Source: Gyromitra esculenta
Taxonomy: Eukaryota > Ascomycota > Pezizomycetes > Pezizales > Discinaceae
Assembly: GCA_038503075.1 (NCBI GenBank)
Contig: JBCAML010000005.1
Coordinates: 1,798,001-1,862,000, forward strand
Length of the DNA stretch: 64,000 nt
Direction: 5' to 3'
Positions 5,225-51,233 of the stretch are shown here, in pieces (positions within the stretch are counted from its first letter, which is position 1; each line of letters starts with the position of its first letter). A program made the position numbers and the translations under genes. The notes beneath the pieces are model-generated. The model did not search any database. It worked only from the letters and a program-made list of their open reading frames with translations, and was not told the origin of the DNA.

Positions 5225-7216
5225 CATCCTCCGTCCCCGCTACAACCTCTTCGATTGAAAGTCCACCACCACCTTTTGCGTTGCAACGGCGTTACACACA
5301 GCCAAAAGTCTCTAACACTTTGGCTTCATTTCATTACCCCGCTCACAAAAACAAGTTGGTTCCTTGTTTTAACAATACCACTCCAATCGCATGTCTTCAG
5401 AAGGCACAGCCAGAATCTTTGCACCTCTCTTCCCCTCTTTCCAAAGAGGTGAAGCCTCTACCACTCCAGCTTCCTCCGCAACTGCCATGGCGGAACCCAG
5501 AACCCCCTCACCATCAAAATGGCAGAGAGCTGACCCCTCACCCCCGTCACCGCCAGTCTTTTCCCACCCTACAAACTGCATTAACTTAATCCTAAACAAG
5601 GACAACGGGATCACAGGAGACCCATTACCCTCAAGACAGTTAGCCAGTGCCTTACAAAGGCTGATGAACTGAATCTCATCCACTTCACCTCTCTCCTTAA
5701 CATGATCCAGCATCTACAAAGTGAGGTCACCTTACTCAAAGAGGCTGCTAAGAGTCCAGCACCTCTCCCAGACATGTTTCCAGAGTCTCCAACTCTGAGC
5801 AACCAAGAACACATGCACCTTCTCACAGTAGGGAAAGCAGCGCCCCCAGTACCACCTGCACCACTTAGTGCTCCTCCTGCTCCTGCTCCTGCTATTGCTC
5901 CCCAAGCACTTCCCCCTGCCCCAAAGCCTCTGCAATGGGCTCAGGTGGCAGCCAGCAAACCCAAGAGAAAAACCCAACCAACAAAGACCAAACAGGCTGC
6001 CTCTGCATCTGCCTCTAAGACTCATGTCTCCCCTCTCACCATCACTCCCACCATGTGTGCACACCGTTTGATTGTCAAACGTGACGGCTCCCCCCTTTCT
6101 AAAGGGTCACTCACGGAACTCAGAGATAAACTTAACTCTGCAATTGGTTCCATCACCATCCAATCTGTGGCAATAGACACACATTCTCAGAATGTGTCGT
6201 TGATGGTCATGAACAATATGTTTGCCAACACCCATTACCGGAAAGTTGGCCAATTTCTCCACATCATCCCAGGAGCTCGCTCCCTACACCTTGACGAACC
6301 ATTGCACCAACTTGTTGTACATGGCATTCCCACTTCCATGGAGCCCTCTGCCATTCAGCAAGAGCTCTGCAATTTCAACCCCAGCCTCACTATGGACACA
6401 CCTCCAAGGTGGCTCACCCTACCAGAAAAAGGAAGAGGAAAAACAGTTTCCTCCATTGTTTTCACACTCTCTGGCCCCAAAGCTAATGAGATCGCTAATC
6501 GCACACGGCTTTCTGCTTTTTCCACCACTGTCTCAGCTGAACGCAAACTCCGTTTTGGACCTTCCACCAAGTGTTCCCAATGTCACAAATTTGGACATCA
6601 CACAAACAAATGTCCCAACCAACCATGCTGTCGCTGGTGTGTTGGACTCCATCCTACTGCAGCTCATACCTGCCCCACCCTCACTTGCTCAATTAAAGGC
6701 CGCCCCTGCTCTCACACTCTTGTCAAGTATGTTAACTATGACGGACCCCATGAGTCACACCTGAGCAGCTGCCCATCACGCCCTTCAAAGGCCTCACAGC
6801 CCCCTCCGGCAGATGATCAGATGGACCACTCGGTCATTTTACTTATACTCGCTCAACCCTAACTAACTTTGATCGGAATTTTTCCTGGCTGCTTTTTACT
6901 TCCACTGCGGCTTTACTGTGGACCTTCTTCTATTGTTTCTCATTGTTTTTTAGCTGTTGCTTGCAAGTCTCTCTACTTTTACAGGCATTTGTTGTCAATT
7001 TTTCCCTGCACCATTAAGTCGTTCATCACAGAAACATCGTCTTGTTCTGTCGGAAGTACTTGGTTCGCTTTTCTTTTGTGTTCTCTCATGTTACCCAGGC
7101 GGATAAGGGTGTTTATTTGGTGGGGATAGGTTTTTTGACTTCATAACCTTTGTGTTGCATAAGCGGTTTTGTACCTAGAAACAACAATCAAATGATTTAA
7201 ACAAAAAAAAAAAAAA
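5225..7216 (+). mobile_element. NLR-A copy 1: ORF1-only non-LTR retrotransposon
   Basis: A 1.99-kb element running from CATCCTCCGTCCC (5225) to a poly-A tail (7203-7216). It matches the reverse copy at 33671-36086 and the split copy at 20205-32668 along its whole length. It has one ORF1 (next entry), a ~350-bp 3' region containing GGCGGATAAGGGTGTTTA and the terminal GTACCTAGAAACAACAATCAAATGATTTAAAC, then poly-A. No reverse transcriptase or endonuclease is encoded, so it must rely on another LINE's machinery. No clear target duplication was seen for this copy. Confidence 0.75.
5391..6862 (+). pseudogene. NLR-A ORF1 (zinc-knuckle Gag-like), 1-nt deletion
   Basis: Same protein as the intact 480-aa ORF at 34478-35920. 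The N-terminal part reads in one frame from ATG 5391 to about 5615. Where the intact copy has GGAGCACCCATT this one has GGAGACCCATT, a one-base deletion that throws the frame. Reading resumes in the other frame at 5702-6862 (386 aa). That part holds the Pro/Ala-rich linker, the basic KPKRKTQPTKTK tract, the RNA-binding core and the knuckles CSQCHKFGHHTNKC, CRWCVGLHPTAAHTC and a third CSHTLVKYVNYDGPHESHLSSC. In that last unit two Cys are lost relative to the intact copy (CVNC became YVNY). Confidence 0.7.
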
Positions 7217-10973: not shown

Positions 10974-13900
10974 CTAGTAAACATAGTAGTATATTTCTAA
11001 ATCTATATCGCTGTTTACCAGCCAGGTCTTTGAATTTAGTTGCTTGTTTTCTTCAACTAACTGAACTGGACCTTCAATGCTCTCAATGGAAGTGATAAAT
11101 CGATCTCTTCGGTTCAACTCCACTTCAACAAATCCGTGAGCAGGATTTGGCTTGCTGGTTTTATTAAAAAACTTTGTACCTTGCACCATTGTGAACCCAA
11201 GCTCTTGTGGCTTCCTCACCAATACCTTCTTTCCTTGAACCAAATAAACTTGCTCAACCATCGGTACTGTCTCTGGTGTCACCAGAGAATCTTTCAGAAG
11301 CCATGATGGTGGCCTGCAGCCAAAATATAGAAGAGGGAAACATGCCTTTCGCCCCTGAAAACTATCCACCTCATGATCGTCAAATTGTTGAACCCAAACC
11401 GAGTGATCCGTGGACCTTCCTTCTTCCTTCCTTTTTCCACCTTTGGGACACTTAAGTAGCTGTTTCTTGATTGTGTCTGGACCCTGAAAAGGATAGTACC
11501 AGCATGACACTTCGTTGTATAGATTGATTTTGATCTCTTTGAACTCTTCGCCACCTAATTTATCCACCAATCCCCGCCCCCACTTACTTATGAGCCAATC
11601 ATGGAAACGCCAACCTAGGTCTGCGATTCCATAAAGTTCCTCTGCTCTTTTCAAGGTTATCAAAATTGCAAGTTTTGCTACTAGGCGGGGAGCAGGTGAC
11701 CGATTCACCCACCACTTCTCAGGTACCATCGGAACATCAGATTGTGGTACTTTGTTTTGATGTTGTTTCTGCCTTCCCGCCCGTGTAGTTGTGCATCAGG
11801 TTTCCTTGTCCTGCAACTGCAGTATGTTTGTAGTCTCAGATCTGTAGTATCCCCGTACAGCAAGGTACTCCAAAGTCTGGACCATATATGACAACCCTAA
11901 TTGGCGGTCATTAAAAGGCAGAATCTGTGTTTCATGATTGACATGATTAGATGCTCAGTATGCGTCTTTGACGCGCTCAACATGAAGTAATTCCGATATA
12001 TCTGTTGAATAATTGTCTGGCGCACCCATGTGATGGATATTCTCGCTAATATGACTGGCTAGATGCATCTTTCGGAACAAGAAGTGGTTGATCTCCGTCT
12101 CAAGTCTTTTCTTCTCTGCTTGCTTCCTCTTCTCAGACCATGTCGAACCGTTTTCCATGAGTAATTTTTCCCATTGAGTGTTGAATGGTGTGGTCCTCAC
12201 TGCAGTTGCCCTGGTCCCTTGAAATACCGCTTTGAAGATATAGAACGTTGAGAGCTCTTTCTGCAACAGAGAGAGTGAATAGTCTGAGTGACTTCATTGT
12301 TATAAGATTAAAACTAGCTCACACAACGCCCTGACGCACTTTAGGGCTTCCAGCTCTTCTTGACTCTTTGCTCTGACGGCGCAAGGCTTCGGGGCCAGTA
12401 GAGGACCTACAGTAACCAGAAAAAAGTGCACCATGGTTCGTATCTCTTTCCCTGGCCATTGGCTAACGTCTCGGTAGGTCCTGCAGAACCATTGGAATCA
12501 TGGGTATGCAGGCATCAATTTGAATCGCTTGTTGTATTTTTGGTACAGCTTTCTCGATTTGAGAAAGGGTATCAGCCACTCCACGAGCTTTTTCATGAGC
12601 CCAAGATAGAATTGACCGAGGATATCGACAATCCATAACTTATATACGTTGCACAGTAGATAGCTCCAGAGTGGATTGTCGACAGGTAATACCATTTTCT
12701 CACTCAGACGGCGAAAGGAATCCTCACGTATTTCGGTAGATGTGGTCCGGGACCTTGCAATCAGTTCATGATATTCCTCGTGTTCCCTCTCCTGACCACA
12801 AGTTGGACCATTATCATGCCCCATTTGAGTGACTGGGATCTCACAGGATGGGCAAGCTCCGTTCTTTATGCGTGCAATAATAATGTGTTCTTGATAATCA
12901 GCAACCCATGCAGCAATTACCGGGAAGCAGGGACGGACCTTTCCATCCGAGCAATCCCATTCAAATCCCGGACCCTTCAAATCAAGGTCTTTGATGCTCC
13001 TGAAAACCTCATCAAAAGCTGTATGCCAGGAAGCATGTATGGCGCCACTTTCCAGGTCTTTGGCAGGTATGGGAAGTAGGGCAAGTAAGATCCACACCAT
13101 TTTCGATCTCTCACACGGAACCTCTTTGTTGATGTTACCAAGAGTTATGTAAAGCGGCCAGGCAGATTTATCTCCTGAAATGTTTGTCAGAGAGGTCTTG
13201 TCGGAAGTGCAAATGAGAGGTATAAGGGTTCCACCGTCAGGGATGTTGCCTTGTGTTTCCCACCACCAGTCTACAGGATACATTTCCTTGTAAATCCACC
13301 GACTCTGTAAATCATAGTAGCAAACTGGCTCATATGTTGTATGGTCCGCGAAAGGGAGATGACCAAGAAGATGTTTGACACATTCCAAGAGATTCCATGT
13401 GTAGAGAGTGCCAATTGGCAGCTGCTTTTTAACCCAGCTATCGCCGCCTAGGCCAAAATCGATGTTTTCTAGTTTTTCCCAAAGCTCGTCGGTGGTTTGA
13501 AAGAACTTACAGTGGTCCGCGTCAAGCCCTCGGTCCATGTACAAATTGATCGCCGCTTTCGTAAGCCCATTTTCAAGCATTCAGTGAGCGAGTTCAAAGT
13601 CTTTGTCATTCACAAAAGGGTACCACGGGTTCCAGTTTTCCTCCAGATGCTTCTTATACAGTCCTTTTGCCAGATCATACGATCTGCCTGCACAGTCAGG
13701 TCCTTCAGCAGATGTATACCACAACGTTTTTGTTGGGTCCGGTGAACACGTCAGGTCCGGGTTTTCTGGTTTGAGGTTCACTTCCGCTTCTTCAACTCGG
13801 ATTTCTTCACCAAGATCTTCATTGAGATCGTAGGTCTCTGGTTGGCAGTCGTACTCCACTACCCTCTATCAGCACAGTTATCCACGATCAATAAGGGCAA

Positions 13901-20192: not shown

Positions 20193-20204
20193 AGAATAAA
20201 TGCT
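20193..20204 (+). repeat. Left 12-bp target-site duplication of NLR-A copy 2
   Basis: AGAATAAATGCT occurs here directly before the element's first bases (CATCCTTCATCCC) and again at 32669-32680 directly after its A-rich tail. This brackets a 12.4-kb composite insertion as one original target-primed event. Confidence 0.85.
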
Positions 20205-20370
20205 CATCCTTCATCCCAGCTACAACCTCTCCGATTGAAAGTTCACCACCACTGTTTGCGTTGTAAAGGCGTTACACAGAGCCAAAAGTCTTTAGCACTT
20301 CAGCGTCATTTCATTACCCCGCTCCCAAAAAGAAGTTGGATCCTTGTTTTAACAACACCACTCCAATCGC

Positions 20371-21782
20371 ATGTCTTCAGAAGACACAGCCAGAATCTTC
20401 ACACCACTCTTCCCCTCTCTCCAAGGAGGTGAAGCCTCTACCACTTGTGCTTCCTCTGAAACTGCGATGGTGGAACCAAGAACCCCCTCATCATCGAAAC
20501 GGCAGAGAGCCGACACCTCTCCTCCATCACCACCTGTCTTTTCCCACCCCACTAATTAGATCTCTATGATTCAAAATAAGGATAATGGGATTACAGGAGC
20601 CCCCATGACCCTCAAGACAGTTAGTCAGTTCCTCACAAAGGATGACGAACTGAATGTCATCCACTTCACCTCCTTCCTTAACATGATCAAGCATCTACAA
20701 GGCGAGATAACCCTACTGAAAGAGGCTGCTAAGAGTCCAGTACCTCTTCCTGACATGTTCTCAGAGTCTCCAACTCTGAGCAAACAAGAGTGCATGCACC
20801 TTCTCACAGTAGGGAAAGCAGCGCCCCCAGCCCCACCTGCACCCTTCAGTGCACCTCCTCCTCCTGCACCTGCTGCTGCTATTCCAGCTCCTCCTGCCCC
20901 AAAGCCTCTGCAATGGGCTCAGGTGGCTGCCAGCAAACCCAAGAGAAAACCCCAACCATCAAAGGCCAAACAGGCTGCAAGTGCACCTGCCCCTAAAACT
21001 TCTTCCTCTCCTCCCTCAACATCTCCCAACATGCACGCTCATCGTTTGATCGTCAAACGTGACGGCACTCCCATCTCTCAAGCGACACCCATGGAACACA
21101 GAGATACACTTAACTCTGCCATTTGTTCCATCACCATCCAGTCTGTGGCAATAGACACACATTCCCAGAATGTGTCGTTGATGGTCATGAACAACATGTT
21201 TGCCAACACTCATTACAGGGAAAGTTGGTTAATTTCTTCACCTAATCCCAGGAGCTCGCTCCCTACACCTTGACGAACCATTGCATCAACTTGTTGTACA
21301 TGGTATTCCCACCTCTATGGAGCCCGCTGCCATTCAGCAAGAACTCTGCAACTTCAACCCCAGCCTCACTATGGACACACCTCCAAGGTGGCTCACCCTA
21401 CCAGAAAAAGGAAGAGGAAAAATAGTTTCCTCCATTGTTATCACACTCTCCGGCCCCAAAGCTAATGAGATCGCCAACCGCACTCGTTTATCTGCCTTTT
21501 CTACCACTGTTAGATCTGAACGCAAACTCCGCTTCGGACCCTCCACCCAGTGCTTCTAATGCCACAAATTTGGACACCACACAAACAAATGCCCCAATCA
21601 ACCATGCTGTCGATGGTGTGTTGGACTCCATCCCACTGCAGCTCATACCTGCCCCACACTCTCTTGCTCAACTAAAGGCCGACCCTGCTCTCACACGCTT
21701 GTTAAGTGTGTTAACTGCGACGGACCCCATGAGTCACACCTGAACAGCTGCCTATCACGCCCTCCTAAGGCTTCACCGCCCC
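20371..21782 (+). pseudogene. NLR-A ORF1, copy 2, several disabling changes
   Basis: Homologous to the intact 480-aa ORF at 34478-35920. ATG 20371 opens the frame. TAG at 20557-20559 stops it, and the same frame continues from 20566. A small insertion near 21225 (CAGGGAAAGTTGG) shifts the frame, which resumes at 21281. The first zinc knuckle is hit where CTCCCAATGTCAC became CTTCTAATGCCAC, two C-to-T changes, one creating TAA at 21557-21559. Beyond it the knuckle residues continue until LTR copy c. Confidence 0.7.
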
Positions 21783-22196
21783 TCTCACGGTTGTGTCTTC
21801 TTTTGAGGTCTTTGGTATCCCCGAAGATGAGCAGTGCTACTCAAGATAGGAAACAACACGTCCGAGGAGTGTGGAGTTTCTACAAGTTCTACAGTGGGGT
21901 CTAACTCAAGGCGAGTGAAGTGTAGCGACAAGGACAGCGACAGCGAGGGTTCTGAGGTAGATCCAAAGTAGTATTAAATAATACAGGTAGAAGTGAAACG
22001 AGAATGTTGCTTAAGGAAGGAAAGGAAAACTACAACAACGATAAAACTATCTTCCTTATATACCCCGCTTTTCCTTCCCGTGACCCATAACCGAACATAA
22101 CCGAAAGACAAAGACATTATTACCAAAAGAAAACCCATAGTTCATTACCACCATTCTAACCGAACCGTAACCCATTATCCGTCTTCATCTGTGAAA
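21783..22196 (-). mobile_element. Solo-LTR-like repeat, copy c (5-bp TSD GCCCC)
   Basis: A 414-bp unit, TCTCACGG..CTGTGAAA on the plus strand, inserted near the ORF1 3' end of NLR-A copy 2. GCCCC duplications lie at 21778-21782 and 22197-22201. The strand is inferred from the TATA-like block read in reverse (GCGGGGTATATAAGG). Confidence 0.8.
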
Positions 22197-22506
22197 GCCC
22201 CCTCCAGCAGAAGACCAGATGGACCTTTAGGTCATTTTACTTTTACTCTCCCAACCCCAACTAACTTTGATTGGAGTCTTCTCCTGGCCGCTTTTTACTT
22301 GCGTTGTGGCTTTGCTATGGACTTTCCTCTATTATTTCTCATTGTTTCTTTGGCTGTTGTTGGTTTGTTGCTTTACTCTCATAGGTATACGTTGTCAACT
22401 ATCCCTGCACTGTTCAGTCGTTTATCGCAGGAACATCGTTTTGTTCTTTTGGAAGTACTTGGTTCACTTTTCTTTTGTGTTTTCTCTTGTTACCCAGGTG
22501 GATAAG

Positions 22507-22926
22507 TCTCACGGTTGAGTCCCTCGTTAAGCCCTTCAGTATCCCTGAAGGTGAGCAGTGCTACTTAATGAGGTATCAACGTGTTCAAAGAGTGCAGCGT
22601 TTCTACAGGTCCTACGGTGGGTATACTTCAAGGCGAAGTATCGGCGATGTTTCACAGTGACAGCGAGGGTTCTGAGGTAGAACCAAGATAGTATTTAGAA
22701 CAATACAAGTAGAAGTGGAACGAGAACGTTGCTTAAAGAAAGAAGAAGAAGAATACAAAAACAACTAAAAACTCCCTACTTAAATACCCCGCTTTCCCGT
22801 GACACAAACCAATAGTTCAAATAACAACCGAAACCTAACCGAACAACAAAGCCATTATACCCAAAGAAATCCTTCATAAGTACCGACAACTTCTTCCTAA
22901 CCTATTACCGGGTTCCATCCGTGAAA
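22507..22926 (-). mobile_element. Solo-LTR-like repeat, copy d (5-bp TSD ATAAG)
   Basis: A 420-bp unit, TCTCACGG..CCGTGAAA on the plus strand, with ATAAG at 22502-22506 and 22927-22931. The empty site is visible in copy 1 of NLR-A (GGATAAGGGTG at 7101), so ends and duplication are exact. Confidence 0.85.
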
Positions 22927-23204
22927 ATAAGGGTGTTTACTTGGTGGGGATTGGTTTTTTGACTATATAACCTTTGTGTTGCATAAGTGGTTTTGTACCT
23001 AGAAACTAGTTTTTGATAACCTATTTGTGGGACCGCTGGGCCAGGGCAGGGTAACTATCCTTGGCGTGTTACCCGTCCTTCGATTTTCTGTTTGCTCCAG
23101 CCACCCCTAACGAAGTCAACACCTTGCCTATACATCACCACATCTTATGCCCGCCCATCAACTCTCAATCCAAAGCTTTTCTCCTACGCCTCAAGCTCTT
23201 CTCT

Positions 23205-23575
23205 AACAGCCCCCGCCCAAGCAGCCTCCGCCCAAGCAGCCCCCACCCTAGCAGCCCTCGCTCGAGCAGCTCTTGACTGCCAGCTTCCCCCCGCCCAAGC
23301 AGCTCCCGCCCCAGCAGCCTCCACCCAAGCAGCCTCCGCCCAAGCAGCCTCCGCCCAAGCAGCCCCCGCCCAAGCAGTCCCCACCCAAGCACTCTGGTCG
23401 AGCAGCCCACCCCAAAACCTTAACCCTACAGTTCCCACCAAACAACTCTCAGCCTGCCTGCCTACCACGCTCCGCCTGCCTACCACGCTCCGCCTGCCTA
23501 CCGCGCTCCGCCTGCCTATCACCCTCCGCCTGCCTACCGCCTGCCTACCGCGCTCCGCCTGCCTTCTATTCTCTG
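23205..23575. repeat. Proline-type minisatellites (15-bp and 18-bp units)
   Basis: First a (GCCCAAGCAGCCYCC)n array at about 23210-23395, reading as QPPPK or AQAAS repeats depending on frame. Then come five to six 18-bp units CTGCCTACCRCGCTCCGC at 23458-23570, which read PAYHAP in one frame. The two arrays are not open in a single shared frame. They may be the wreck of a low-complexity protein or plain minisatellites within the Helitron. Confidence 0.65.
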
Positions 23576-24012
23576 CCTACCAACTGCTTTTATTATACTT
23601 CAAGGTTTGTTTTACATTCTCCTGTCAGTTTCTTCGCTCGCAACCTTGTTCCTGTCCCTGTCCCTGTCCCTGTATGGCTTTGGCTTCGGCCTTAGTACTA
23701 GTTCCATTCGTGTTCTTTGTGTAGCAAGCAAGTTCAGAATTCCTATGACCGCGCCAATGGTATACGTACTGTTGGTCAGGGACCTGGCTACTACAACGTC
23801 AATTTTTGACGGTGACGCATGGCAATACGGTCCGCCTGGGTGTAAGGCTTTCCGGCCCCACTTCTCGCTGCTCAATAAAGAGGGTAAAATTCCTGTGCAC
23901 AAGGATAAGGCAAAGAACCCTCGCGCAGGAGGCAAACATGCAAAAACTCGCTACTCATCAATACCGCATTCAACCGTCAGCATTAAGCTGACAGGAGACC
24001 AATAGATTTAAA

Positions 24013-25341
24013 ATGCCTTTTTCCGCTTGCGCTTCCACTTCCACCCCCGCTTCCACTTCTGCTTCCGCTTCCACTTCCGCCTCCGCTTCCGCCTCCGCCT
24101 CCACTTCCACTTCCGCTTCCACTTTCGCCTCCACCTCCACTTCCGCTTCCACTTTCGCCTCCACCTCTGCTTCCAAATCCCTTTCCGCTTCCGCTTCAAA
24201 TGATACACTATCCAGAATCCGTCACTTGATGGACAGCAAAGCATTCAAATACAGCAACTTCCCATATCAAATTCCTAAGGGCAGCACTGTTGAGACAGAA
24301 GTTACTACCATCTACCAATCATGGAAAGCGATCCAAAATATTTTTGTTGTTCGCTCTCCAATTTCCTACACACTTTTGAAAGAAAGGTATCATGGAGAAC
24401 AAAAGTTGATGGCAAGCATCACAGAGCACACAGAAGCCATTCATACCTTTGCATTCTACCCTTCTAGCATGGGAGATTTGGAAGTCCGTGATCAGGAAGG
24501 AGTTTTATTGGGATACAGATTCAAGCTTGCAAAATCACAGGTGCAAACTTTGACAGAATCTGATGCATTGCTGCCTGATTGCACTACCAGGAAAAGGGGG
24601 GGAGGTGGAGATCCACTTGCACGGGGTGTATACGACACAAGGCATTATGGTGTGTGGGCTCATTACAATAAGAGAATGATGGAGACAGCAGAGACAAAAA
24701 GGGATCAGCCTGTTGCTGATAAATGGTTGAAGGAAAATCAGGAACTATTTGAGGCAATCTCCTACGAACTGAGAATGCAAGCACCAGAACAATGGGTGAA
24801 GTTCACAGACCCTGTTGTTAAACATATGGCAACATACAAATCCAAAGCGGGGAAGGCATTAACACCTGCTGCAGGTGCCTGGCATGGGGTTTGTATCAAT
24901 TGAGGGCAGCAAGGTGATGTATCAGCTACACATCAAGATTGGATGGACCTGCCTACTTGTTTTAATGCAATGGCACCATATGGGACAGGATTCAAAGGTG
25001 GAGATTTGGTTTTATGGCAACTGAAAATGAAGATTCAGGTTGGCGTTGGTGAATGCATTATGTTTTTGGGAACTCTAATTGCTCACAAGGTGACGGGGAT
25101 CACCGAGGGGACAAGGAACTCTATTGATCTTTTTACTGCAAAAGGCAATTTTGACAAACTTGATCGATACAATGAAAAGGTAGGAAATCAAAAGTACAGT
25201 AAGAGTAAAGGGAAAAAGAGAATGGAAAAAGGATTGGCAAAGAAAAAAAAGGATAGAAAGAGTCATAGAGCTGAGCTACGAGAAGCAAAGAGGGAAAGGC
25301 AAAAGGGTATGAGGCAGGAAAAGCCAAGATGTAATAATTAG
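24013..25341 (+). pseudogene. TET/JBP-type 2-oxoglutarate/Fe(II) dioxygenase, one in-frame TGA
   Basis: Family enzymes oxidise 5-methylcytosine or thymine in DNA using Fe(II) and 2-oxoglutarate. There are 442 codons. Residues 1-60 are a Ser/Ala/Thr low-complexity tract encoded by TTCCGC/TTCCAC repeats. Residues ~60-290 form an N-terminal region containing ARGVYDTRHYGVWAHY. The double-stranded beta-helix core follows with THQDWMD (His307 and Asp309, the HxD iron ligands), FNAMAPYG, FKGGDLVLWQL, LIAHKV (His358, third ligand) and TRNSIDLF (Arg368, likely 2OG-binding). The last 50 residues are strongly basic (KGKKRMEKGLAKKKKDRK) and would suit nuclear or DNA binding. TGA at 24901-24903 (VCIN*GQQGD) interrupts, six codons after a Trp-His-Gly motif. 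A single CGA-to-TGA change would explain it. No intron is visible there. The rest is intact. It faces the Rep-helicase inside the Helitron. Confidence 0.8.
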
Positions 25342-25942
25342 TGGATTTTCTTTGTATTCATGTGTGATTTACGAGTTGAGTGTCTTTACCGTATGGAATG
25401 TTAACAGGTCATTTGTGTGTTATATTGCATGGCACTAGGCAGTAAGTACTAACCCTCTATATTTAGATGCTGTTTGAACAGGTTTACTCTACTAACGATC
25501 AAGAAAATGAATATCTTTTATGCTAGTGTTCTATATCTCCAACTACTACTACTAATATAATTACGATTACTGTTAACAATGTTTTAGCAACAACATCAAA
25601 CAGCATTATCTGCATGGTTTTACCTTACTACAAATTTTTCAACTGCCACATGCAACATCCTGGCTACCACTATTTACTTCCTCATTGCTAAATACTGTCC
25701 TTCTACTTTCTTTGAGGCTGTTACCTTGTTACCACCACAATCATTTTAACAGTCCCGAAACAATTTACCATTCTCTTGAGACTAATTACCCCTTAGTTTA
25801 TTAAACTCTCCTGACCTTATTTTCCTTGTTACCACTAATTAGCTACAGTATAACTATCTACTTTCCACTTCTCGATCTCTTAATTTTTTTGACATCAAAT
25901 ATTCACGACAATTGGCACCAGCACTGAACACACTACTATGAC
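25342..25942. other. AT-rich spacer between dioxygenase and Rep-helicase
   Basis: Convergent 3' regions of two genes. No ORF, and no terminal hairpin plus CTRR that would end the Helitron here was identified. Confidence 0.5.
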
Positions 25943-28900
25943 TTATGATACCAACACCGCCAATCTCTCATATTCTTTCACAGCCTCAATGTCAAATTTT
26001 ACTGCTAATGGATCAAAACAGGAGATACTGACATCTTCCCAGCGTTTGGCCCTACTTAATGCAGTATACGCCTGACCAGCACTAAAAAGGGTTTGATCTA
26101 ATGCAACGCTAACATTGTTCAAGGAGAGCCCTTGTGTTTTGTGGATCGTGAGTGCGAAAGCATTTTGAATTGGCAACTGAGTCCTGGAATATAGGATTCC
26201 ATAACTGCGAAAGTGGACTGTATCAAGTTGTATTTCCACCATCTACATTGCATGTTAGTTACTGACTGTTTACTAAACAATGCATATTTTCATCTTACCC
26301 GTATACCCTCAATAGTAGGGAATGCTACAGTCGGTAGTCCTTCTTCTCGAATGGCAACAATCACCCCACAGGTCCCATTGGATACTCCAACAGAGAGTAA
26401 TGTGTTATTTAAAAACATTACTTTTGCTCCAAGTACACAGACAACCTCCACAGGATAGTTGGTACCTTTTTTGAAGGTACGTTCATGTGATTCCTTTGAT
26501 AGAAGTTGTCCTTCCTCTCGATCAATTGCATGGAAGACATGTCTCATAGTGTCAGGTAGGGTATCAAGAAGAAGATTGTTGATTTTGTTGGCTGTTTGGC
26601 GAAAAGAGACCAAATAAGTTGTTAGATAGGTTTTTGCATGGGAGTGAAAGGCTTGAACTTTTTGTTGAATTATTTCACTGCTGGCAGGACTGATGTTGCC
26701 AAAGCGCAGATCGTTTAATAGGTTAAAAAAGGCAGGATCCTCACGTTGACGCATTGATTCCCGCAGAAATATTGGACTGAAAAGCCTCCATATTGGTGAA
26801 AAGAAAATCTTCTTTCCGGTGACAGGAGGCAATTGCAACAAATCGCCCAAACACAATACATGGAGGTTACCAAAAGGCTTGATATTGTTGTGAAGGCGAG
26901 CAAAGAGAGAGGATATGAATTCAAATAGGTCAGAGTTAACCATGGATATCACATCAATAATCAGAACCCTGACTTTTTTGAGTTGGTGAAGCTTTTCCGT
27001 TGACTGAAAGATGTTTGATTTCAGTCCACCACCATCTCCATGACCACCAATGTGAAGGGCACAGTGAATCGTTCGACCATTTATGTTGTTGGCAGCTATT
27101 CCAGTAGGTGCAAGTAACAGGAACTCCATACGCTGACTTGAAAACCATTGCTGTAAGGCACGAAGCAAATAGGACTTGCCAGTACCTGCAGGGCCAGTAA
27201 TAAACAATTTCACTCCAGGGCTGCCTAAGCGAGCTTGAGCTACTGCTTGAGTAATGTTACAGTATGCCGTGTATTGATCTCCACGAAGATCAAATATTGC
27301 CATTGAGTTGGGGACTGGGAGTGGAGATTGTTGCATCATAATTAACTGGTCTTGAATTACTGACTTCACGGATACGCATTGACCATCGACAATCGTATCA
27401 AGGAGCTCCAGGTAAATATCTGCTTGCTGAAGTGAATGTTGATGGATTCCTGACTGGTATGTTGACATCAAATCATGATAGAGATTTGGAAACTGAGCTA
27501 ACATGTGATCTTTGTAAGTAGTGAAGTTGCCGTTACCAAAGATCTCTTCGTCAGATCTCCATGGCTTCAGTTGAAGAAGTTTGACGAAAAAGAATGAATC
27601 ACCATCAGCTAAGCGACGATGAACAGTACGGATCAGGACAGGCTATATTCCATGTTAACAAATATCCAAGCAAACCTTTGACACAACTTTACCTTTTTAC
27701 GGGCATATACAAAGTTTCCATTCTTGTCAGGCCAATAATTGCCTTGACTTCTCCTTTTTCTCCGTTCCAGCTTATAATAAGAATGATAGTGGAAATATGT
27801 AAGTCTCTCAAACATGGGATGTGCTGGTCGAGCAAAATACTTTTCTAATGCATCGGGATAGTAGGGTGTGTCATCGTCAGCTTGCTGTTCGAGAAGCCAA
27901 GCAGGTTTGACAACTGATGTTCGTTCAGCAGGAATAGAGGTTGGAAGATACAAACAGCCACTCGACATTTGAAAGATGGGAAAGCTCAATAACAAAACCA
28001 TGCACTCCATTGAACCCATCCTACGGGAAAGAAGATGTGATGTGGTATGATTCTCACTCCTGATATCAACCAAAGATTTTGGTTCAGCTTTTGTGACATA
28101 CTTTGAAATGTATTTTGCCAGACCTCCGGAAGTGCAGTACTGGACATTGCAATGAGCCTGCCACAGGAGAAGAAGTTGTGGGCAGTACGGAACAACATAC
28201 TGATCAGCTTCAGTCAGCCTGCGGTATGTGTATCTGACTTCTCCTGGCTTTTGGAACGTGATTGGTGACAATTCTGCAGGAAAGCCTTTACGGCATGGGC
28301 CTGTCATTGTATCATCACGCCCACAAAGATGGATATGGCAGTGATGTATTTGATGCATCAAGACCAGCTCATACAACTCAGATTCCATTTCTGGATCAGG
28401 AATATCTGCACGGATAAAGGCTTTGCCAATTAACTCTGATTGATCAAATTCTGTCCAAAGAAGTGAATGAGTGTGAATAGCACCACGCAGTTGAAATTCA
28501 TGACGTTCCACCAACTCCCGCAACTGACCAAAGCCTGAGACAGTTGATCCACGAAAATAGGTTGTTTTGATCCAGTGCCAACGTTCATAGTAGTATTGAA
28601 TAGCATCCCATGGGCGATTGGAGGGTAAGGTATCATGGTTGCCAGTTTGAAGGAGAATTTGCTGATACTTTGGCCAACGTTCTGAGAAGGTTGTTGTGAC
28701 AAATAGTGTTGGAACCCCAAATGTTTGAAGCATACAACGAATCTTGGCCTCAGCAGTACTAAAAAAGGTATCACCAGTTCGAATAAACTTGGGAATCGTG
28801 GTAGTGAGTTCTTCGTTGAGGATGGACCAAGAACCATATTGACTGGGTTGGAGTAGTTGAGAAGCAGTATATCGTTGATCTGCTGATCGTTGAGCTTGGC

Positions 28901-30266
28901 CTTTGATTAATCTGCAATTATTTTGGAAGATGCGAGAGGCTTCAATTTCCATGTAAGTCCATGCAGGCCAGTAGTGGTCATCCCGATAATGTGAAACAAT
29001 GGAGTTTAACTTTGTCTTGGTGTCCACCAACCGAGTGTTGTGATAAGGGATCCTTTCTTGTCGAGAAGCCAACTGCCATTGACCCTGACCCCATGGATAG
29101 AGAACAGGAAACAAAAGAGGTTCCAAGGCAGGATCAGATCGTGTGAGACCTATATGATGATGTTCAGGGCTTGAAGATGGACCTGGTAAAGATCCAACAG
29201 GCAGTCTGAATCCACGATGATCTTCGTTTGCTGTTGCTGATGTATAGTCAAAGGGATGGAGGACAAGATCTGGACGATTCATTGGACGTGACTCTTCTGG
29301 TGGAGCTAATGATGAGATAGAAGCAGTGGGAACTGGATGACGTTGCAAGTGAGTACGAACATCATATCTGTGATATAGTGGATTGTTTGCTAATAGCCAG
29401 TCACGGCAGTGTTGCAGATGTTCAATATCATGACCTTGATCAACCGAGTTATTGGAACTTTCCAAAAATGCACCAATACAGCCACTAAACAATGCAACAG
29501 CACGTTCATTATTCAATAATGACATCTTCCCTACCTAATTTCAGCACTCAATGTATTTGGAACACGAGATGGAAATCTTACCAGTGACAGTGCGGTAGGT
29601 AGCATAAGGATTAATTGTCTGAGAGTGACTTTGTGTGCGGCCCAAGCTTGTCTGCAGAGAAACAGGACTTAGGAAAATCCTAGAGCGTTGAGACAAACTG
29701 ATAAGAACGTCAGGCCATGGGCCTGCAGCTGGTGGTTCCCTGGGAGTTGTCTTGCAATGAGTACAAACAGTGATTTGTGGTGATCCACTTTTCATTCTCT
29801 CGGATACTGAAAAGCCTAAAACAGCTACAAGAGGATAAATTTTGTTATTATCCTTATCAATCCAGTTGACGTGACGTGGAAGCATCAATATGCCACAAAA
29901 AGAACATGGACAGTCAGGGAAATATGTGTCATAAGTGGTTCAAAACCTAGAAAGAAGTCGTTGAAAAGGTACATCAGGGCTAAAGATGCTTTGGATGGAG
30001 CTGTGGATGTTGGTTTTTGGTGAGGATTCCTTTCTAGTGTTGTCCAATCGTGGTCTTCTATTACTGGTAGACTCTGCGTATTGGCGAGATTGTTGATTAC
30101 TATGTTGAACAAAACTAAAAGTAGAAAACAGGCCACCAGAATCCATCAGGATATCATCTGATGGTACAGCTGTCAATGCAATGGATTGTGATATATTCAT
30201 CATATCACCTGCTAATTGGTTGCTAGTTGTACGATGAGGGACATATGAGCGAAAGCGAATTGACAT
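25943..30266 (-). CDS. Helitron Rep-helicase (four exons, one internal TGA)
   Basis: Rolling-circle transposase of the Helitron. Exons are 30266-29582, 29530-27693, 27642-26299 and 26242-25943. All joins keep frame, giving 1388 aa with one TGA at 29940-29942 (LLSRF*TTYD). The N-terminal region has a Cys-rich unit (CPCSFC..H, CTHC). The Rep (HUH nuclease) domain shows RGAIHTHSLLW with its His-x-His, and KYISKYVTK with the paired Tyr. The stretch RTVHRRLADGDSFFFVKLLQ bridges to the helicase, which is PIF1-like: Walker A GPAGTGKS, Walker B VLIIDVISMV (Asp-Val where most have Asp-Glu), GDLLQLPPV, and the last-exon motifs TIHKTQGLSL and AYTALSRAKRWEDV. The single stop and the Asp-Val substitution suggest recent loss of activity. 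Confidence 0.88.
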
Positions 30267-30375
30267 TTTGGTTTACTGAGTTTCTCTATCAGTAAAGCCC
30301 TCATATTATTCCACCATGACAAAATTGAAAATATAAAAAATATAAAAAAAGATACAGTATCCAATCCTTCTATTG

Positions 30376-31667
30376 TTACATTTTATCCTTTCCTTTCCCT
30401 TGTCCTTTACCAACACGTTTAGACTTTGAAGACTGGATGGACACTGCAGCAGACAATTCATCCTCGTCCGAAGAAGACTCAACCATATCAATAGTTTCCA
30501 TAGGTAATGGCTGATCATCGGAACGCTCTGGACTATGAAAAGGAGTACGACTCGCTCTTGCTTCCGGTCGTTTGAACAGATTGCTTCTATCAGCATCTCG
30601 TCCAAAGTTCAGCTTAGCTCGAATGGGCCCTACAAATAGGAGTTGTGAGTATTAAAATCCACAATACTTGTTATATGCGAAACTGACCTGGCGATCCTGG
30701 TATTGTGCTTGAAGACACTCCCGATTTTGTAGGTGTTGCAGGACCACTGTCTGGATCTGGCTTAATTATCTTCATTGGACTTGGCGAGGTATTGACTGGG
30801 CCCAATAAAACCTTGCGTTTGGACTTCGGAGTTTGGAATATGGAGGCTTTGTCATCTTTGGGAACACCATCACATGAGAAATTTATAGCTTGAGTTATCC
30901 CATATGCTATAATGTCAAATATTTAGTAAATTGAGAGCTAAAAAATTGGTGTTGAGTAATTGATGTGATCTTACCTCTATCTATATCACTCTCATAAATA
31001 TACCTGAAAGCTATATCCAGTACTTTCCCCGAATGCAAATATTTAACCAACTTTGCGAACAATAGGACTTTGGTGTCATTCAAAAAGGTGAGAGTGCACT
31101 ACAGGATTCAAATTAGCTTTGTCAAATTTGTTTTAACAGGTGGAATAATTTAAGCTATTACCAGCACATCTTCTTTAGCCTCACTATTATACTGATACAT
31201 CTGACCTTGAAAGTGAAAATACGTTGTATTGGGCATATCTTCAAGATCCGAGAGCATAGTGACAGTTGATGTACAGAATGGATCATTGGAAATAAATTTG
31301 TCTGCAGGTGCGTTGTTCATAAGCTCGACATTACGGATCAATGAGTACTACTTGTGTTATTAGCATAATCAAAAAGTATGAGGCATACAAAAGGATGATA
31401 GATGGTAGCCAACCTTTGGAGTGTTTCCAGCGAAAAAGATAACAGTGCCATAAAATAGGTATACTCGATCAGGATAGAGAGTGTTGTCGGTGTTTTGGTA
31501 GTACTTCACAGACACCTCACGGGATGCACCATCTGCATCATGATGAAGGACTTTTGCCGATTTGAATCCACCCACACCAGAAATTGAGGAGATTCTGCCA
31601 ACGAAAGAATAATAAATAGGCATGTGGAAATAATACTTACAATTGATACTGTGTGAAAAATGTTCAT
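30376..31667 (-). CDS. Helitron accessory protein, multi-exon, possibly OB-fold
   Basis: Unrecognised by name. The open pieces on the minus strand, separated by short GT..AG introns, chain into one protein of roughly 300-350 aa. They are a beta-rich block near 31590-31410 (GVGGFKSAKVLHHDADGASR.. DRVYLFYGTVIFFAGN), then 31355-31160 (FHFQGQMYQYNSEAKEDVLV), then about 31095-30990 (CTLTFLNDTKVLLFAKLVKYL). Next is a Ser/Pro/Lys linker at about 30900-30690 (TPKSKRKVLLGPVNTSPSP), and last 30632-30376 with an acidic patch (VESSSDEDELSAA) and a basic tail (KRVGKGQGKGKDKM). Several small beta blocks followed by a charged tail would suit an OB-fold ssDNA-binding partner, as plant Helitrons carry RPA-like genes. 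That is inference. The first exon and start codon are uncertain. Confidence 0.45.
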
Positions 31668-32623
31668 CCAAAAGTGTGAGTTGGTAAAGGTAAGGGTGAC
31701 AGAAGTAAACCCCGAATGTTTGAAAGAAGAAGAAGAAAGCGGAGAATGAAAACCCAGGTGGGAATCATGGGGTATTTAACACGTCATGTCCAAAGCTATA
31801 ACACAGGAACTAATTATAACATACACACCAAAAGAGAAGCAATAAGTGAAACCAAGAGAAACCAAAAGTTATGCCGATTCTGTACAGATATCAAAGAAGT
31901 CTGTGCAATTGAGCTTAACAACTGCTCTAAGATCACACGTACTACATACCAAACAGGTTTAATCAAGCAGGAAATAACTTGCCACGGGCTAAAATAGGAA
32001 ATTGAATGCAGAAAGGCACATGGTGAGAGTTGATAGCTCAAACTAAGAATGAGGTGAATCAGCTGATTCAGAGCAAAAAGAAAGAATAAGAAGCGATCTG
32101 GTGCAAAATGTACGATGTCCAACGCTATTCATACAACAACAAAGTTGTAGGTGATGTAGGCTGAAAAAGCAACACAATCTAATGTTCAGTATGATTGTGT
32201 ATCCAAGCATACGAATGATATTTGTGAAGGTTTGGGGAATGACATCACGAAGGGTTAGGGTTTTTGAATGTTGTTGAGAATGGTGAATCGAGCAATAATT
32301 AGCGTTGAAGTATTGAAGTGAGAAGACAAAAACACTAAAATTTTATGTTAGGATTGGCTCGAAGGAAAAACATGAAGGGAAAAGGTTCAAAAGTGAATTT
32401 GAATATTTCTAAAGCAAACTATTTGGATGATGTACCATTCACGATACCTTATAAAAGTAATTATAACAATAACATGTGTTTTGATACATATAGCGATATC
32501 ATATATAAAATCTAAATATCAAGAAAATCGATGTGCTTCCAAATCTGGCAAAAAGTGTCTAATCTGGTTTAGCGTTATATTAAACAGTAGGATCAACACA
32601 CCTACTCAATTTTTATAATGTTT
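31668..32623. other. 5' region of the Helitron
   Basis: No gene recognised; AT-rich. It ends at the junction with NLR-A. Confidence 0.5.
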
Positions 32624-32668
32624 AACAACAATCAAATTATTTAAACAGAAAACAAAAAAAAAACACCA

Positions 32669-32780: not shown

Positions 32781-33188
32781 TCTCACGGTTCAGTCTCTTG
32801 TTTAGCCCTTCAGTATCCCTGAAGGTGAGCAGTGCTACTTAAACGAGGAACTAACACATTTTGAAGAGTGCGTGATTTCTACATGTTGTACAGTGGGGTC
32901 TAACTCAAGGCGAGTTAAATGTAATGGCGAGTGCAGCAACAGAGAGGGTTCTGAGGTAGAACCGAGATAGTATTAAATGAATACAGTAGAAGTGGAACGA
33001 GAACATTGCTTAAGAAAAGAAGAAGAAGATACACAGCGACCGAAATCCATCACTTAAATACCCCGCTTTTCATACCAAATAACTCATAACCATGAAACAA
33101 CCGAACAACAAAAACATTATATCCTTTACCCAAAACCGTTGCAACCAACATATTATCCTAAACCCCTTATTCATTCCTATCCGTGAAA
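32781..33188 (-). mobile_element. Solo-LTR-like repeat, copy e (5-bp TSD CTATG)
   Basis: A 408-bp unit, TCTCACGG..CCGTGAAA on the plus strand, with CTATG at 32776-32780 and 33189-33193. Confidence 0.8.
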
Positions 33189-33900: not shown

Positions 33901-34312
33901 TCTTACGGTATGACCTTTGTTTAAGCCCGTCAGTATCCCTGAAGGTGAGCAGAGCTACTTAAACTAAAAGGTCAAGCGACAAGGTATACGATGTTTCTAC
34001 AGGTCCTACAGGGGTTTAAATCAAGGAGAGTTAAGTGGAGAGGGTTTCACAACAACAGCGACCGCGAGGATTCTGAGATAGAATCGAGGTAGTATTAAAA
34101 CGATACAACAGAAGTAAAGTAAGAATGTTGCTTAAGGAAAGAAAAGAAGAAGATACAAGTGAACAATTTGCATCCTTTAAATACCCCACTTTTAGATCAT
34201 CATGACTCATAACCGACCACAACCGAACTACAAAGACATTATACTCCTAACCAAGATCCTAACACAACCCATGCAATATCCTAGACCCATTTACTCCGTC
34301 TTATCCGTGAAA
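33901..34312 (-). mobile_element. Solo-LTR-like repeat, copy f (5-bp TSD ACAGC)
   Basis: A 412-bp unit, TCTTACGG..CCGTGAAA on the plus strand, with ACAGC at 33896-33900 and 34313-34317. The interrupted NLR-A sequence resumes on the far side. Confidence 0.85.
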
Positions 34313-45069: not shown

Positions 45070-48000
45070 CTACCAATCAATACTACCTACCTTTGCACTT
45101 ATGCGAGTGTCATCTGTGATTGCTGTAGGTTTTGTAGACTTCCGCCCTTTAGAAGTACACCGCTTCCGATCCATCTCTGCAAACGGATCTTGAGTTTCTT
45201 CCTTCTTTACCTTCCATCTTGCTGTTCCCAAGAGTGCATCCAATTCCGCAACCGACGGAAGCTTCAAATAAACCCAGCCATCCACCCGCTCTTCGACTTC
45301 AAAAGTCGCAATATTAACTTCCGAATCGCTACTGCAGCTTCCTGCAGATTTTCCGCTAAGATGGAAATTTCGCTTGTGATATGGGCATGAGACCCAAAGC
45401 TTCTTCCCTTCCCTTCCTTCCTCGGTGCTATCGTCAAGTTCCTCGCCAATCATGCCATCAGAAAGGACAAAGGCCCGTTTGTGCGGACACATTTGCTGTG
45501 TAGCATAGAATTTGCCCTTGACCTTAAAGATAGCGAGCTGGGTATCACCACGTTTGACCGCCGCGGAGACGGGGGTGGATTGAGTAGCTGCAGCAAAGTA
45601 CGAGGCTTCCATGATAGGTTGCCAGGCCAAGTTTGACCATCTATGGCCTTTGAAGTCATACTTTACAGAATCTTTCGGCCAATATGTCGGTCTAAATTGA
45701 TCCCGCTCTTCGATAATCTCAATGGATTCGCTAGATTCGCCGGTATTGGCAAACTGCTGGAAAGCCCTGGGTAAATAAGAAACCGATCAGTCCGTTTAAC
45801 ATAAATAAATCAAACCGCTAATGATATTCATACTTTCGTCTCTCTGCATTCTTGACTACCTCGGCCCATTCACAAAAGTACGATCCTACCAGCTCCTGCA
45901 TTTGCTGTTCGAGATCAGCGCAAATTCCCAATTTGTCGCCTAGTATAACTTCCTTAAGATACTTGATTCCACCAGGTAGGGCCTCCATCCAGCGCGCTGT
46001 CCGCTGAAGTTTATCTGCGGTACGAATGTAAAACATAAGGTACCTGTCCAAGATCGGGATAACTTGGTCCACAGGGCAGTCCTTAATCAATAGCTCCGAG
46101 TGTCGAGGTTTAGATCCACCGTTTCCTCCAACAAAGATATTATATCCTGTTTCGGTAGCGATCAAGCCGAAGCTGTTAAAAGAAGGTTTGTTAGATAAAT
46201 ATTCTGGCCTGTGTCCAAAGAGAGGGGTTACTCTTTGTTTTGAGCTTCTGCACATTCTCTAATACAACCGGAAACACCAGATTTTATCTTATGGGGAGAA
46301 CGGATACTTTTGTATCGTTCCTCCAGTCTGATCGCCATACCCACACTATCACCAACACCGAATCTACACCAGGTCGTTCCAACGCAACTCTATAGTAGCC
46401 AGCCCCATTATTAGCATAACAACCAACTATTAAGCTAGATTTCAAGATGGCGCCCAAACCTTAATCGTTCTCAGGCTCTTAGCATAAGCGTGACCGCTTT
46501 CCATTCCTGCATTAACAAGCTCCGTCCAAATGTCAACTAAATCCTGTTTTCTCGCACCAAACATGTCGATTCTCTGTCCACCCGTAATTTTGCAGTAAAG
46601 ATTATATTTCTTTGCAACTGTTCCAATAATAATGAGCTTATCAGGGGTTATTTCGCCACCAGCAACTCGAGGAACGACAGAAAAGGTGCCGTTGCGCTGG
46701 ATGTTGGCTAAGAATTTGTCGTTTGTTTCCTGCAACATGTGCATAGGTTGATCCATTACATGTTGATTGAATAAGGTAGCGAAGATAGATCCTAGTGTAG
46801 GTTTGCAGACCTCACAGCCAAGTGATTCGGGATCTTTGCCACATTCACGCATGACTTCGGCGAGAGTTTTCAGCTTCTGTACAGCATTTTTTACTTTTAT
46901 TCAGCAATCAATCACTTGATAAAGGTGCAGCCGGTGGGGTACTAACTTTCACTCTAACAATGTTGAACAAGTCAACACGAGAGTAGGCCAAATGAGGACA
47001 CACTAGGTTTTTAGCATACGATCATGACTACATGTACTCATAGAATTGCGAAGCAGACAAGATGACATACGATGGTTTGAAACCTCTGCTCCCATAGCTT
47101 TCATCTCCGCGTTGAAAATCGACTGTACAACTGGTATGCAACCTGCACAACCAGTACCAGCCTTTGTACAAGATTTCACTTCGCCGAGGCTCTTGCAGGT
47201 GCCATCCTTCACAACTTTGCTGATATCGGCCTTTGTCACGTTGTGACATGAACATACTTGTGTATCATCATCTCTACGGCACATGTTCGTTAGCTGGTAG
47301 ACGATGTATGGAGAGAGCAGTTGGGAGTAGGTCTTACAAGTCATCCAGATTGTCTTCTTCTCCATCCGCCTTTGCTCCTAATATCAACTGGGATGGCGGC
47401 ACTTCCAATGCCTTATTGGATTTTACTATTCCGACTAGTTTTATATAGTCTCTGATGTCTCCAATTATCATACCACCAAGAAGATATTTTCCATCAGCTG
47501 TAAAGAGATATTTCTTGTACACAGCTTGAAATGGATCCTTGTAGCTCAGGGCCTTAATTTGCGGTCCCTTCAGCTGCGTGCTTTCAGCAGCGACAGACTC
47601 TCGACGATGACCAGGGAGCTCTTTTGGCCCATCGCGGTCGGCAAAGAAATCTCCAAAAGAAGCAACATTGACCCCTAGAAGTTTCAGCTTTGTCGAGAGA
47701 TCTGGCCGCCTGAAAGCCCTTTGGGGCTCGGAGTGCCCGTGTAGCACAGACTTGCAAAGGTTGAATGCGAGAACATCCGCCATTTCGACACCAGGAGCAA
47801 TGAGCCCAAAGGTTTGGTTTTCCCACGACGCACACTCGCCAATGGCATAGATACCAGGTACCGTTGTTTCGACACTAGAAAGCCTATGTGATTAACCAAA
47901 GCAACCAAGAATTCGTTACTAGGAGAAAATCGTAAATACTCTTTATTGATCATAAAGCCACCCCGTGGGGCCGTTTTAATCCCAGCCGAAACAGCTAATT

Positions 48001-49144
48001 CATCTCTGGGTTTAATCCCAATCTACCATAACTATGTTAGAATTCGTATTTTCTAAAAACCCAGTTCCACTCACAGCAAAACAAATGCAGGTAGTATCCA
48101 TCGTATCTCCGCTTTCAAAAGTAACACTTTTTACTCGGTTTTGCTCATCCCCATTGATTGTTCTAATCTTTCTGCAACTTAATACGTCCAACCCCAACTC
48201 GGTAACTTTATCAACGACTAGCTTTCCTGCATCTTGATCTAGCTGCCGCGAAAGGACCCATGGGTTCTTATCAATCAGTTTAACAGACCCAAACTGTTCT
48301 AGATCCATCATCGCCTTTGCTGCCTCCAGGCCTAGCAAGCCCCCACCAACAACGCAACCAGTCGACCCGTTGACGGTAGAAGAGAAAGTTATTAGTTTCT
48401 CAAGATCATCTATGTTTCGGTACACAAAAACGCCCTCACTATCATGTCCCGGGGTATTTGATGGAATCACAGCATCAGAGCCTGTTGCAAGAACCAAAAT
48501 ATCATATTTGATATCACGCCCAGCCGAAGTAGTGATTAATCTTGACATTGGATTGATAGATGTTACTTTTGTGCTAATCTTGTGATGTAAGACATCCGGA
48601 TGTGAATCGTACTAGAATTTTAGATATATTAGTACTAATCGTAAACGTGTCTTAGCATATTTTAGCTGAAGGGAGGTAAGACATACCCATTCTTTGGGAT
48701 TTAGGTAAAGATCTTCGACTTTCCGGTGTTCAAAGAACGATGTTAGCCCCACACGATTATAGGCTACGTGAGGCTCCTCGCCGATCACGACAATTTCGTA
48801 TTGGTTATTTTCAGCATCTAATTTAAGTATCTTTTCTCTTCACGTCAAAAAAATATTAGCCTCTTGGTGGTCTCGATTTTGAGTTGGATCAAACCCCTCC
48901 ATAAACGGAGTGGGATGAATAATATGGTTCGTCCATACATGAATGCAATCGCAACCATCCCCAAGCCAACCACTACTATCCGTTGCCGCTTATGGTCTGC
49001 CCGACTCATGCCGCTAATAGGCATAGGTGATGTTTCGTTAGAATTAGTAGGTGCTGAAAGCCCAGTGTCTACGCCATTTTCCATAGCCGTTGATGGTTCA
49101 GTATCCGTGGGATTAGGTGCCAATGATAGGGTTTCGCTTTCCAT
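45070..49144 (-). CDS. niiA: Nitrite reductase [NAD(P)H], 11 exons, 1130 aa
   Basis: Reduces nitrite to ammonium in the cytosol with six electrons from NAD(P)H via FAD, Fe-S centres and siroheme. Exons: 49144-48939, 48837-48687, 48611-48075, 48022-47940, 47883-47338, 47273-47071, 47002-46947, 46876-46460, 46389-46232, 46172-45834 and 45766-45070. All ten introns (52-101 nt) join in frame. The N-terminal FAD/NAD domain has [14 protein letters not shown] and [17 protein letters not shown]-type 2Fe-2S unit follows ([11 protein letters not shown].. [11 protein letters not shown]). The sulfite/nitrite reductase half has [29 protein letters not shown] and [16 protein letters not shown]-terminal Rieske domain has CPHKRAF and [16 protein letters not shown]. 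Length and order equal Aspergillus NiiA. Start 49144 (MESETLSL) is preferred over an in-frame ATG at 49186. Confidence 0.95.
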
Positions 49145-49473
49145 GGTCTGAAATCTTCCTGGAATGAGGGATCGAAGGTAAAACAATGCAAAGACTGCAA
49201 AGCAGAGAAAAATCTCCGTGTAATACGCCAGTTCTTGAAGTTTGTAGGGACCAAACCCACAGCGTCTTGCGATCGATTATAAGAAGTTAGGGCACAAGGA
49301 TGCGGAAAATATTTTGAGCCTTAAGATTTCAGCGATGACAGCGACGCTGTATCTTATACAGTTCTTGTAACGCTGTATTGTTCGTTCCCCTATTGATTAA
49401 TCTTAGAGGTTCAGCTCTACTCTGAAACCGTCTCCCGAGACCTCGATGGAGAAGCAAACGATGGAGATAAAAC

Positions 49474-49481
49474 CCGCGGAG
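49474..49481 (-). promoter_or_regulatory. NirA/NIT4-type site CTCCGCGG
   Basis: CCGCGGAG on the plus strand, i.e. CTCCGCGG, fits the nitrate-activator consensus CTCCGHGG exactly. It lies 330 nt upstream of the nitrite reductase start and next to AGATAA (49465-49470), a GATA-factor (AreA/NIT2) core. Assignment rests on motif and context. Confidence 0.6.
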
Positions 49482-51100: not shown

Positions 51101-51233
51101 CTCGGGGCAGGCATGAAGAACCCGAAAACGCAAGCAGAAGTTGATCAATCAATCCGATAATGCGGCTAAGGAGAGCAAATCAAAAAATCTTACCAGCAAA
51201 AGACATCTTCGGGTTCTTCATACCTGCCCCGAG
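51101..51233 (-). mobile_element. Foldback MITE, family M2, copy 1 (133 bp)
   Basis: Starts CTCGGGGCAGGCATGAAGAACC and ends with the inverted GGGTTCTTCATACCTGCCCCGAG. TA lies before it, CA after it. The interior, read in reverse, matches the copy at 51522. Confidence 0.8.

Follow-up and report, generated by a model that had tools for sequence, protein, structure and literature searches.

Can a rolling-circle transposon carry, as a working part of itself, an enzyme directed against the DNA methylation of its host? This question is raised by a 64,000-nucleotide stretch of Gyromitra esculenta contig JBCAML010000005.1 (hereafter the window), in which a Helitron-like element encoding a Rep-helicase also contains a gene for a putative TET/JBP-type 2-oxoglutarate (2OG)-Fe(II) dioxygenase. 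We consider it reasonably probable that this is a recently active, non-canonical Helitron with the dioxygenase as a working part, which would most likely oxidise 5-methylcytosine (5mC) against silencing. The element, its ends, its copies and the presence of the gene in those copies are direct observations on the genome and are described first.

Boundaries and insertion site

Window 23004-32625 is a complete, sharply bounded TET-bearing Helitron-like element. Its ends were set by aligning copies with differing flanks and by comparison with an uninterrupted sister of the target, and its termini on the Rep strand read TTAAAC...CTAGTT. The features that define it are as follows.

23004..32625, minus strand (that of Rep): whole Helitron-like element, from the ends common to the copies and the empty site
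23004..23005, no strand: AA (TT on the Rep strand), repeated at 32624-32625 and single in the empty site
20204..23003, plus strand: left part of the target non-long-terminal-repeat (non-LTR)-type repeat, whose tail continues at 32626
about 7103..7216, plus strand: uninterrupted target sister, the 3' tail of the non-LTR-type repeat, found in the same window by sequence comparison
32586..32606, minus strand: 6-bp hairpin AGTAGG...CCTACT near the 5' end of the Rep strand

The initial annotation had described a single insertion at 23007-32623; the block stands, while the exact ends are corrected to 23004 and 32625. That it is one insertion is confirmed by an empty site that covers the entire block and by the same ends in copies with different flanks. 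A split at the 3' end of a feature named 'NLR-A' also holds, in that a non-LTR retroelement 3' tail (22927-23003) resumes at 32626; an 'NLR' in the sense of an immune receptor was dropped, the split target being a non-LTR-type repeat, the left part of which is itself broken at 21783-22196 and 22507-22926. The sister crosses the insertion point with a single AA and the filled site has AA at either end, from which it follows that the target is TT on the Rep strand. No target duplication was seen beyond this AA, and a 2-bp duplication is indistinguishable from an element end lying inside TT. No terminal inverted repeat of at least 7 bases was found between the first 60 and the last 300 bases of the element, and a 141-base fold of its ends was no more stable than shuffled sequences.

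Genes of the element

Five coding features were recognised within these ends.

27633..29534, minus strand: Rep with HUH (IHTHSLLW) and two-tyrosine (YISKY) motifs; PF14214 Helitron_like_N, 1.8e-13
29541..30272, minus strand: N-terminal segment of Rep, interrupted by a stop in the copy of the window but forming a single 243-residue open reading frame (ORF) in 9 of the 11 copies examined
26290..27642, minus strand: PIF1-type helicase; PF05970, 1.6e-30
25943..26242, minus strand: C-terminal part of the helicase; UvrD_C_2 1.1e-5, under its curated cut-off
24013..25341, plus strand: TET/JBP-type dioxygenase ORF, with one in-frame TGA (24901-24903) in the window copy

The Helitron_like_N and PIF1-type matches bear out the Rep-helicase proposed earlier for this block, and an HUH Rep with two tyrosines beside a PIF1-type helicase is the combination that defines the Helitron superfamily. 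Both motif strings are kept in all 11 full copies examined. The separate accessory protein of the initial annotation was not borne out: since the alignment of relatives with a longer Rep (P0024; P0027 and P0028 are similar) runs unbroken between about 30260 and 27684, 29541-30272 holds the N-terminus of Rep. A 450-residue helicase frame is found in 6/11 copies and a 99-residue C-terminal frame at the same place in 7/11, and because these frames recur at the same place among copies, the frame changes between the helicase parts may be introns.

The dioxygenase ORF lies near the 3' end of the element, convergent to the Rep-helicase, and comprises a Ser/Thr/Ala-rich repeat N-terminus followed by a catalytic part with HQD...H...R. 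The N-terminus (window 24021-24197 and equivalents) is a tandem repeat of variable length between copies, and stop-to-stop frames range from 397 to 553 residues in the nine copies that are open throughout. The first iron-site motif reads HQD in 19 of the 22 alignment rows and RQD in the other 3, and the HxD...H iron site and distal Arg align with those of NgTET. Of the two profiles proposed as checks, Helitron_like_N matched as given above, while Pfam Tet_JBP gave no match over cut-off for the element's dioxygenase. A search of the Protein Data Bank (PDB) with a single dioxygenase protein gave no matches, and with a full-length profile the best-ranked entries were spurious hits on an unrelated protein, with NgTET at E 0.19; when the profile was limited to the catalytic part, NgTET ranked first. 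On structure comparison of the predicted model, the top 11 rows were CcTET, TET2 and NgTET. A TET-type fold is thus well supported by profile and model, and the view that a TET/JBP-type enzyme is part of the element is upheld by the fold match, by the HxD...H and Arg residues and by its presence in 18 of 19 copies.

Two further TET-like places were noted in the genome. The ORF from base 266 of C2:360300-362100 (L046) encodes 380 residues and is a distant relative of the element's dioxygenase (28%; profile probability 95.7, E 9e-9), with PHVDVLD at the iron site and no match in Pfam or PDB; it is possibly a host or domesticated TET-like gene. The sole Pfam Tet_JBP match over cut-off genome-wide, C17:1015945-1016316 (L043), has four stops and is some 40 kb away from the Helitron copy on C17; it is a decayed TET of another type, outside the element's family.

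Copies in the genome

Is the dioxygenase a constant part of the element or a chance neighbour of its Rep-helicase? The genome searched comprises 47.1 Mb in 23 contigs, and all copy counts are lower bounds. With the helicase segment, at least 19 copies were found at 98-99% identity to the window copy (that on C19 in two pieces), together with a C4 copy in three pieces (89-95%) and a C9 relative (68%). Amongst the 19 near-identical copies, 18 contain the dioxygenase segment (C14 in two pieces) and the C6 copy retains just 51 bases of it. The left end falls at the identical base in the window and in all 17 other dioxygenase-bearing copies, and the right end does so in all 11 copies examined, including C6, with the letters GTTTAA in nine, GTTGAA in C18 and GTTTGA in C6. 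The flanks mostly differ; common targets are seen for the window, C13 and one C16 copy, for two C12 copies, and for C10 and C22. In the copies examined, the dioxygenase travels inside common Helitron ends, which was one of the proposed checks.

It could be argued that the part with the dioxygenase arrived later, as an insertion of its own next to a shorter Helitron, given the convergent orientation of the gene and two places where Helitron sequence begins at about 25290. The initial annotation had pointed to copies ending within 25342-25942 as evidence of this kind; none was found inside the interval, and the two lie just outside it, the C6 copy starting at 25290 (L021 4291) and a 271-base C18 fragment at 25293 (L013 1252-1521). 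Both starts adjoin non-LTR sequence, and as neither has terminal sequence there, they read as broken copies. With the gene in 18/19 copies, one left-end base common to these 18, and an empty site that spans the whole block and not 23007-25900 alone, a separate insertion is extremely improbable and was rejected.

The association also appears to predate the present copies. The C9 relative keeps a helicase and a 126-residue dioxygenase piece (48%, with a stop) in convergent orientation, separated by about 1.8 kb against 0.6 kb in the window, which makes the pairing appear older than the current burst; the C9 element is not whole, its Helitron_like_N match lying about 18 kb off. The closest relatives of the TET and of the Rep both come from one 6799-base contig of one source.

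Some other features of the copies are recorded here. Some targets were used more than once: one position in the non-LTR-type repeat tail (22976-23005 in the window; copies of the window, C13 and C16) and a place near GTACCT within a different repeat (copies of C10, C12 and C22). Neighbouring copies in opposite orientation lie 9-15 kb apart on C3 (2.92/2.94 Mb), C12 (0.615/0.628 Mb) and C16 (0.818/0.827 Mb). The C8 copy contains a 425-base repeat (L012 4156-4581) whose flanks overlap by 5 bases in the manner of a solo LTR, and related pieces occur in the window at 22507-22926, 32781-33188 and 33921-34312.

Selection on the genes

Is the gene of use to the element? Helitrons are known to capture genes (PMC5148889), and the dioxygenase could be such a passenger, captured and amplified along with the element and of no use to it. 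Codons were compared over 381 positions in 17 copies, leaving out C14, which is interrupted, and C6, without the gene; ten of the 17 have no stop or indel in these codons, although in one of the ten, C3a, the repeat-rich N-terminus is in another frame. Against a neutral expectation of 2.52 non-synonymous to 1 synonymous, substitutions shared by at least two copies numbered 13 non-synonymous and 15 synonymous (omega-like 0.34, p 0.004), and those private to one copy 41 and 16 (omega-like 1.02). The corresponding shared and private values, from 11 copies each, were 0.27 and 1.18 for Rep and 0.37 and 0.77 for the helicase. The contrast between shared and private changes reached p 0.031 for TET, p 0.027 for Rep and p 0.0007 when pooled; for the helicase alone, in 11 copies, it was not significant (p 0.25).

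Past constraint on the dioxygenase gene is therefore well supported by the codon comparison, and the pattern is consistent with a gene that jumping requires and that evolves neutrally after landing. The neutral look of the private substitutions would suit a passenger; however, the shared ones are constrained as in Rep and helicase, 10/17 copies are free of stops and indels, the older C9 relative keeps the helicase-dioxygenase pair, and the nearest TET and Rep relatives lie on one contig. We regard a useless passenger as quite unlikely.

Methylation setting

Four C5-methylase loci are present in the genome, of which that on C14 contains stops, and the named relatives of one C5-methylase protein include methyltransferases of Morchella, Maublancomyces, Choiromyces and Tuber. 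Together with further matches to Tuber, these place the host in or near Pezizales. Mutation context was read from C>T changes private to single copies, with 11 copies compared over 4.9 kb. Of these changes 39/80 fall at CpG, compared with 216/2040 of the cytosines (odds ratio 8.0, p 1e-16), while CpA is depleted (17/80, odds ratio 0.43, p 0.001), most CpA changes sitting in C8 (6) and C17 (5). Classical repeat-induced point mutation (RIP) was rejected as the mutation process, because CpA is under-represented and CpG over-represented. The signature points to CpG methylation of the copies.

The enzyme may nevertheless belong to the element and act elsewhere, on N6-methyladenine (6mA), thymine, RNA or a single-stranded transposition intermediate. 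CcTET acts on 6mA too (PMC12730594), MT-A70 family genes are present in the genome, and the residues at CcTET positions 331 and 337 differ in the element's enzyme. Yet the mutation signature of the copies is CpG, the context of 5mC, and NgTET, to which the profile aligns best, is a 5mC oxidase, so that we consider another substrate unlikely.

Weighing the proposed role

Turning back to an enzyme that oxidises 5mC for the benefit of the Helitron, we infer its enzymatic activity, its substrate and its anti-silencing effect, and that it would lift silencing is backed by the signs of selection on the gene together with the CpG signature in the copies. In this scheme the Rep-helicase would drive rolling-circle transposition of the element, the dioxygenase would oxidise 5mC at CpG sites of its copies, and host DNA methylation would thereby fail to shut the element down before its next move.

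Several observations weigh against this proposal. The CpG signature itself implies that the copies are not fully protected by the enzyme, and in the TET-less C6, a single copy, CpG changes are 14 against 23 other private changes, compared with 25 against 83 in the ten others, a difference short of significance (p 0.09). Seven of the 17 aligned copies have a stop or indel in the dioxygenase, and one helicase stop is common to more than one copy. Shared and private substitutions were counted off-tree, with gene conversion not excluded. Pfam Tet_JBP matches only 1/19 family members (E 0.0052), and the predicted model has a mean pLDDT of 59.9, with the catalytic part largely below 50.

Chromosomal location

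The non-LTR-type repeat that serves as target occurs on at least 16 contigs (best 40 of 122 candidates scored). Among the matches listed, 13 of the 16 contigs have two to five places within 2-99 kb and three have one. This suggests one repeat-rich site per contig, which may be the centromere or pericentromere. For the 16 Helitron places on the 12 contigs with both, the mean distance to the nearest listed repeat is 29 kb, a value matched by 0/20000 circular shifts (shift mean 605 kb, best 135 kb) in a test that understated the lengths of C4 and C9, counted C9 as two places and left out six copies (C8, C14, two on C16, C17, C20) whose contigs have no listed repeat. The proximity may reflect target preference or retention, which the shift test does not tell apart.

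Tempering the centromere reading, ordinary genes in the window start about 12 kb from the element (from 45 kb). Beside the repeat region, 45073-58961 shows Rieske, molybdopterin oxidoreductase and weak MFS matches and is perhaps a nitrate-assimilation gene cluster. On the other side, 12501-13580 encodes a Plavaka transposase (PF18759, 9.3e-59); Plavaka is another transposon lineage reported with TET genes (PMC12730594).

Comparison with known systems

The statement that no rolling-circle transposon with such cargo had been reported did not hold, as Kojima (2025) describes eleven transposon lineages with TET genes, among which are Helitron1 elements of Puccinia graminis and of five species of Pezizales, and Helitron2 of Agaricus bisporus (PMC12730594). 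Escape from methylation silencing was already proposed there for transposon TETs, so that both the kind of element, a TET-bearing Helitron, and the anti-silencing idea were published in December 2025. The main text of that paper does not contain the words 'purifying', 'synonymous' or 'selection', and its two uses of 'centromer' concern Coprinopsis and the title of a reference. No further report of a TET-bearing Helitron was found in a literature search of titles and abstract openings, with subscription journals mostly outside it.

The Pezizales Helitron1 elements with a PE-type TET are the closest parallel, likewise combining a Helitron with a TET/JBP-type gene of a family beyond ordinary sequence profiles (PMC12730594). 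The PE-type hallmark, however, is HxE, whereas HxD (HQD) is found here, and the ends TTAAAC...CTAGTT at a TT target are not those of canonical Helitron1, a comparison made by description and not by sequence. The Agaricus bisporus Helitron2 also has a TET gene and belongs to a non-canonical group, but is from another phylum with a PE-type HxE enzyme; the Puccinia graminis Helitron1 similarly carries a TET gene, of PU type (PMC12730594). CcTET of Coprinopsis cinerea and the AG-type TET of Kyakuja share the fold and give the best structural match, at 7% identity in the structural alignment. Counting from HxD, the AG type has Asp at CcTET 337 (H+11) and Gly or Ser at 331 (H+5); neither is kept here, with Asn at H+11 in 9/9 alignment rows and Asp at H+5 in the window element.

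As for the termini, canonical Helitron1 has 5'-TC...CTRR-3' between A and T, while this element has 5' TTAAAC, 3' CTAGTT and a TT target; CTAG fits CTRR, yet two more bases after it are common to the copies. Helitron1 inserts at A^T, Helitron2 at TTTT^T or C, and Helentrons at TT (PMC5148889). The TT-type target of this element agrees with the Helitron2/Helentron group, which is also marked by an asymmetric terminal inverted repeat; no inverted repeat of at least 7 bases was found in the terminal regions compared. FoHeli of Fusarium oxysporum, likewise Helitrons of an ascomycete, also have a 5' hairpin and depart from the canonical ends; their end sequences differ, no asymmetric terminal inverted repeat was found in the window element, and the passages on FoHeli mention no dioxygenase (PMC5148889). 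The element thus departs from the published ones in its HxD, as opposed to the HxE of the PE type, in an Asn at the place of Asp337 of CcTET, and in its T^T ends.

Implications

We tentatively suggest, as a possibility short of an even chance, that this is a fourth, HxD-type lineage of transposon TETs, needed by a non-canonical Helitron whose home, and perhaps target, is the methylated repeat core of each chromosome, its presumed centromere, where it would open CpG-methylated chromatin for its own next jump. Transposons with enzymes against host DNA methylation would make the silencing arms race directly testable. The 18 gene-bearing copies and the one without it, within a single genome, form a natural test set for the effect of TET on the methylation of the copies and of the repeat core, and the sequence signs of a gene kept by selection between jumps add to the value of this set.
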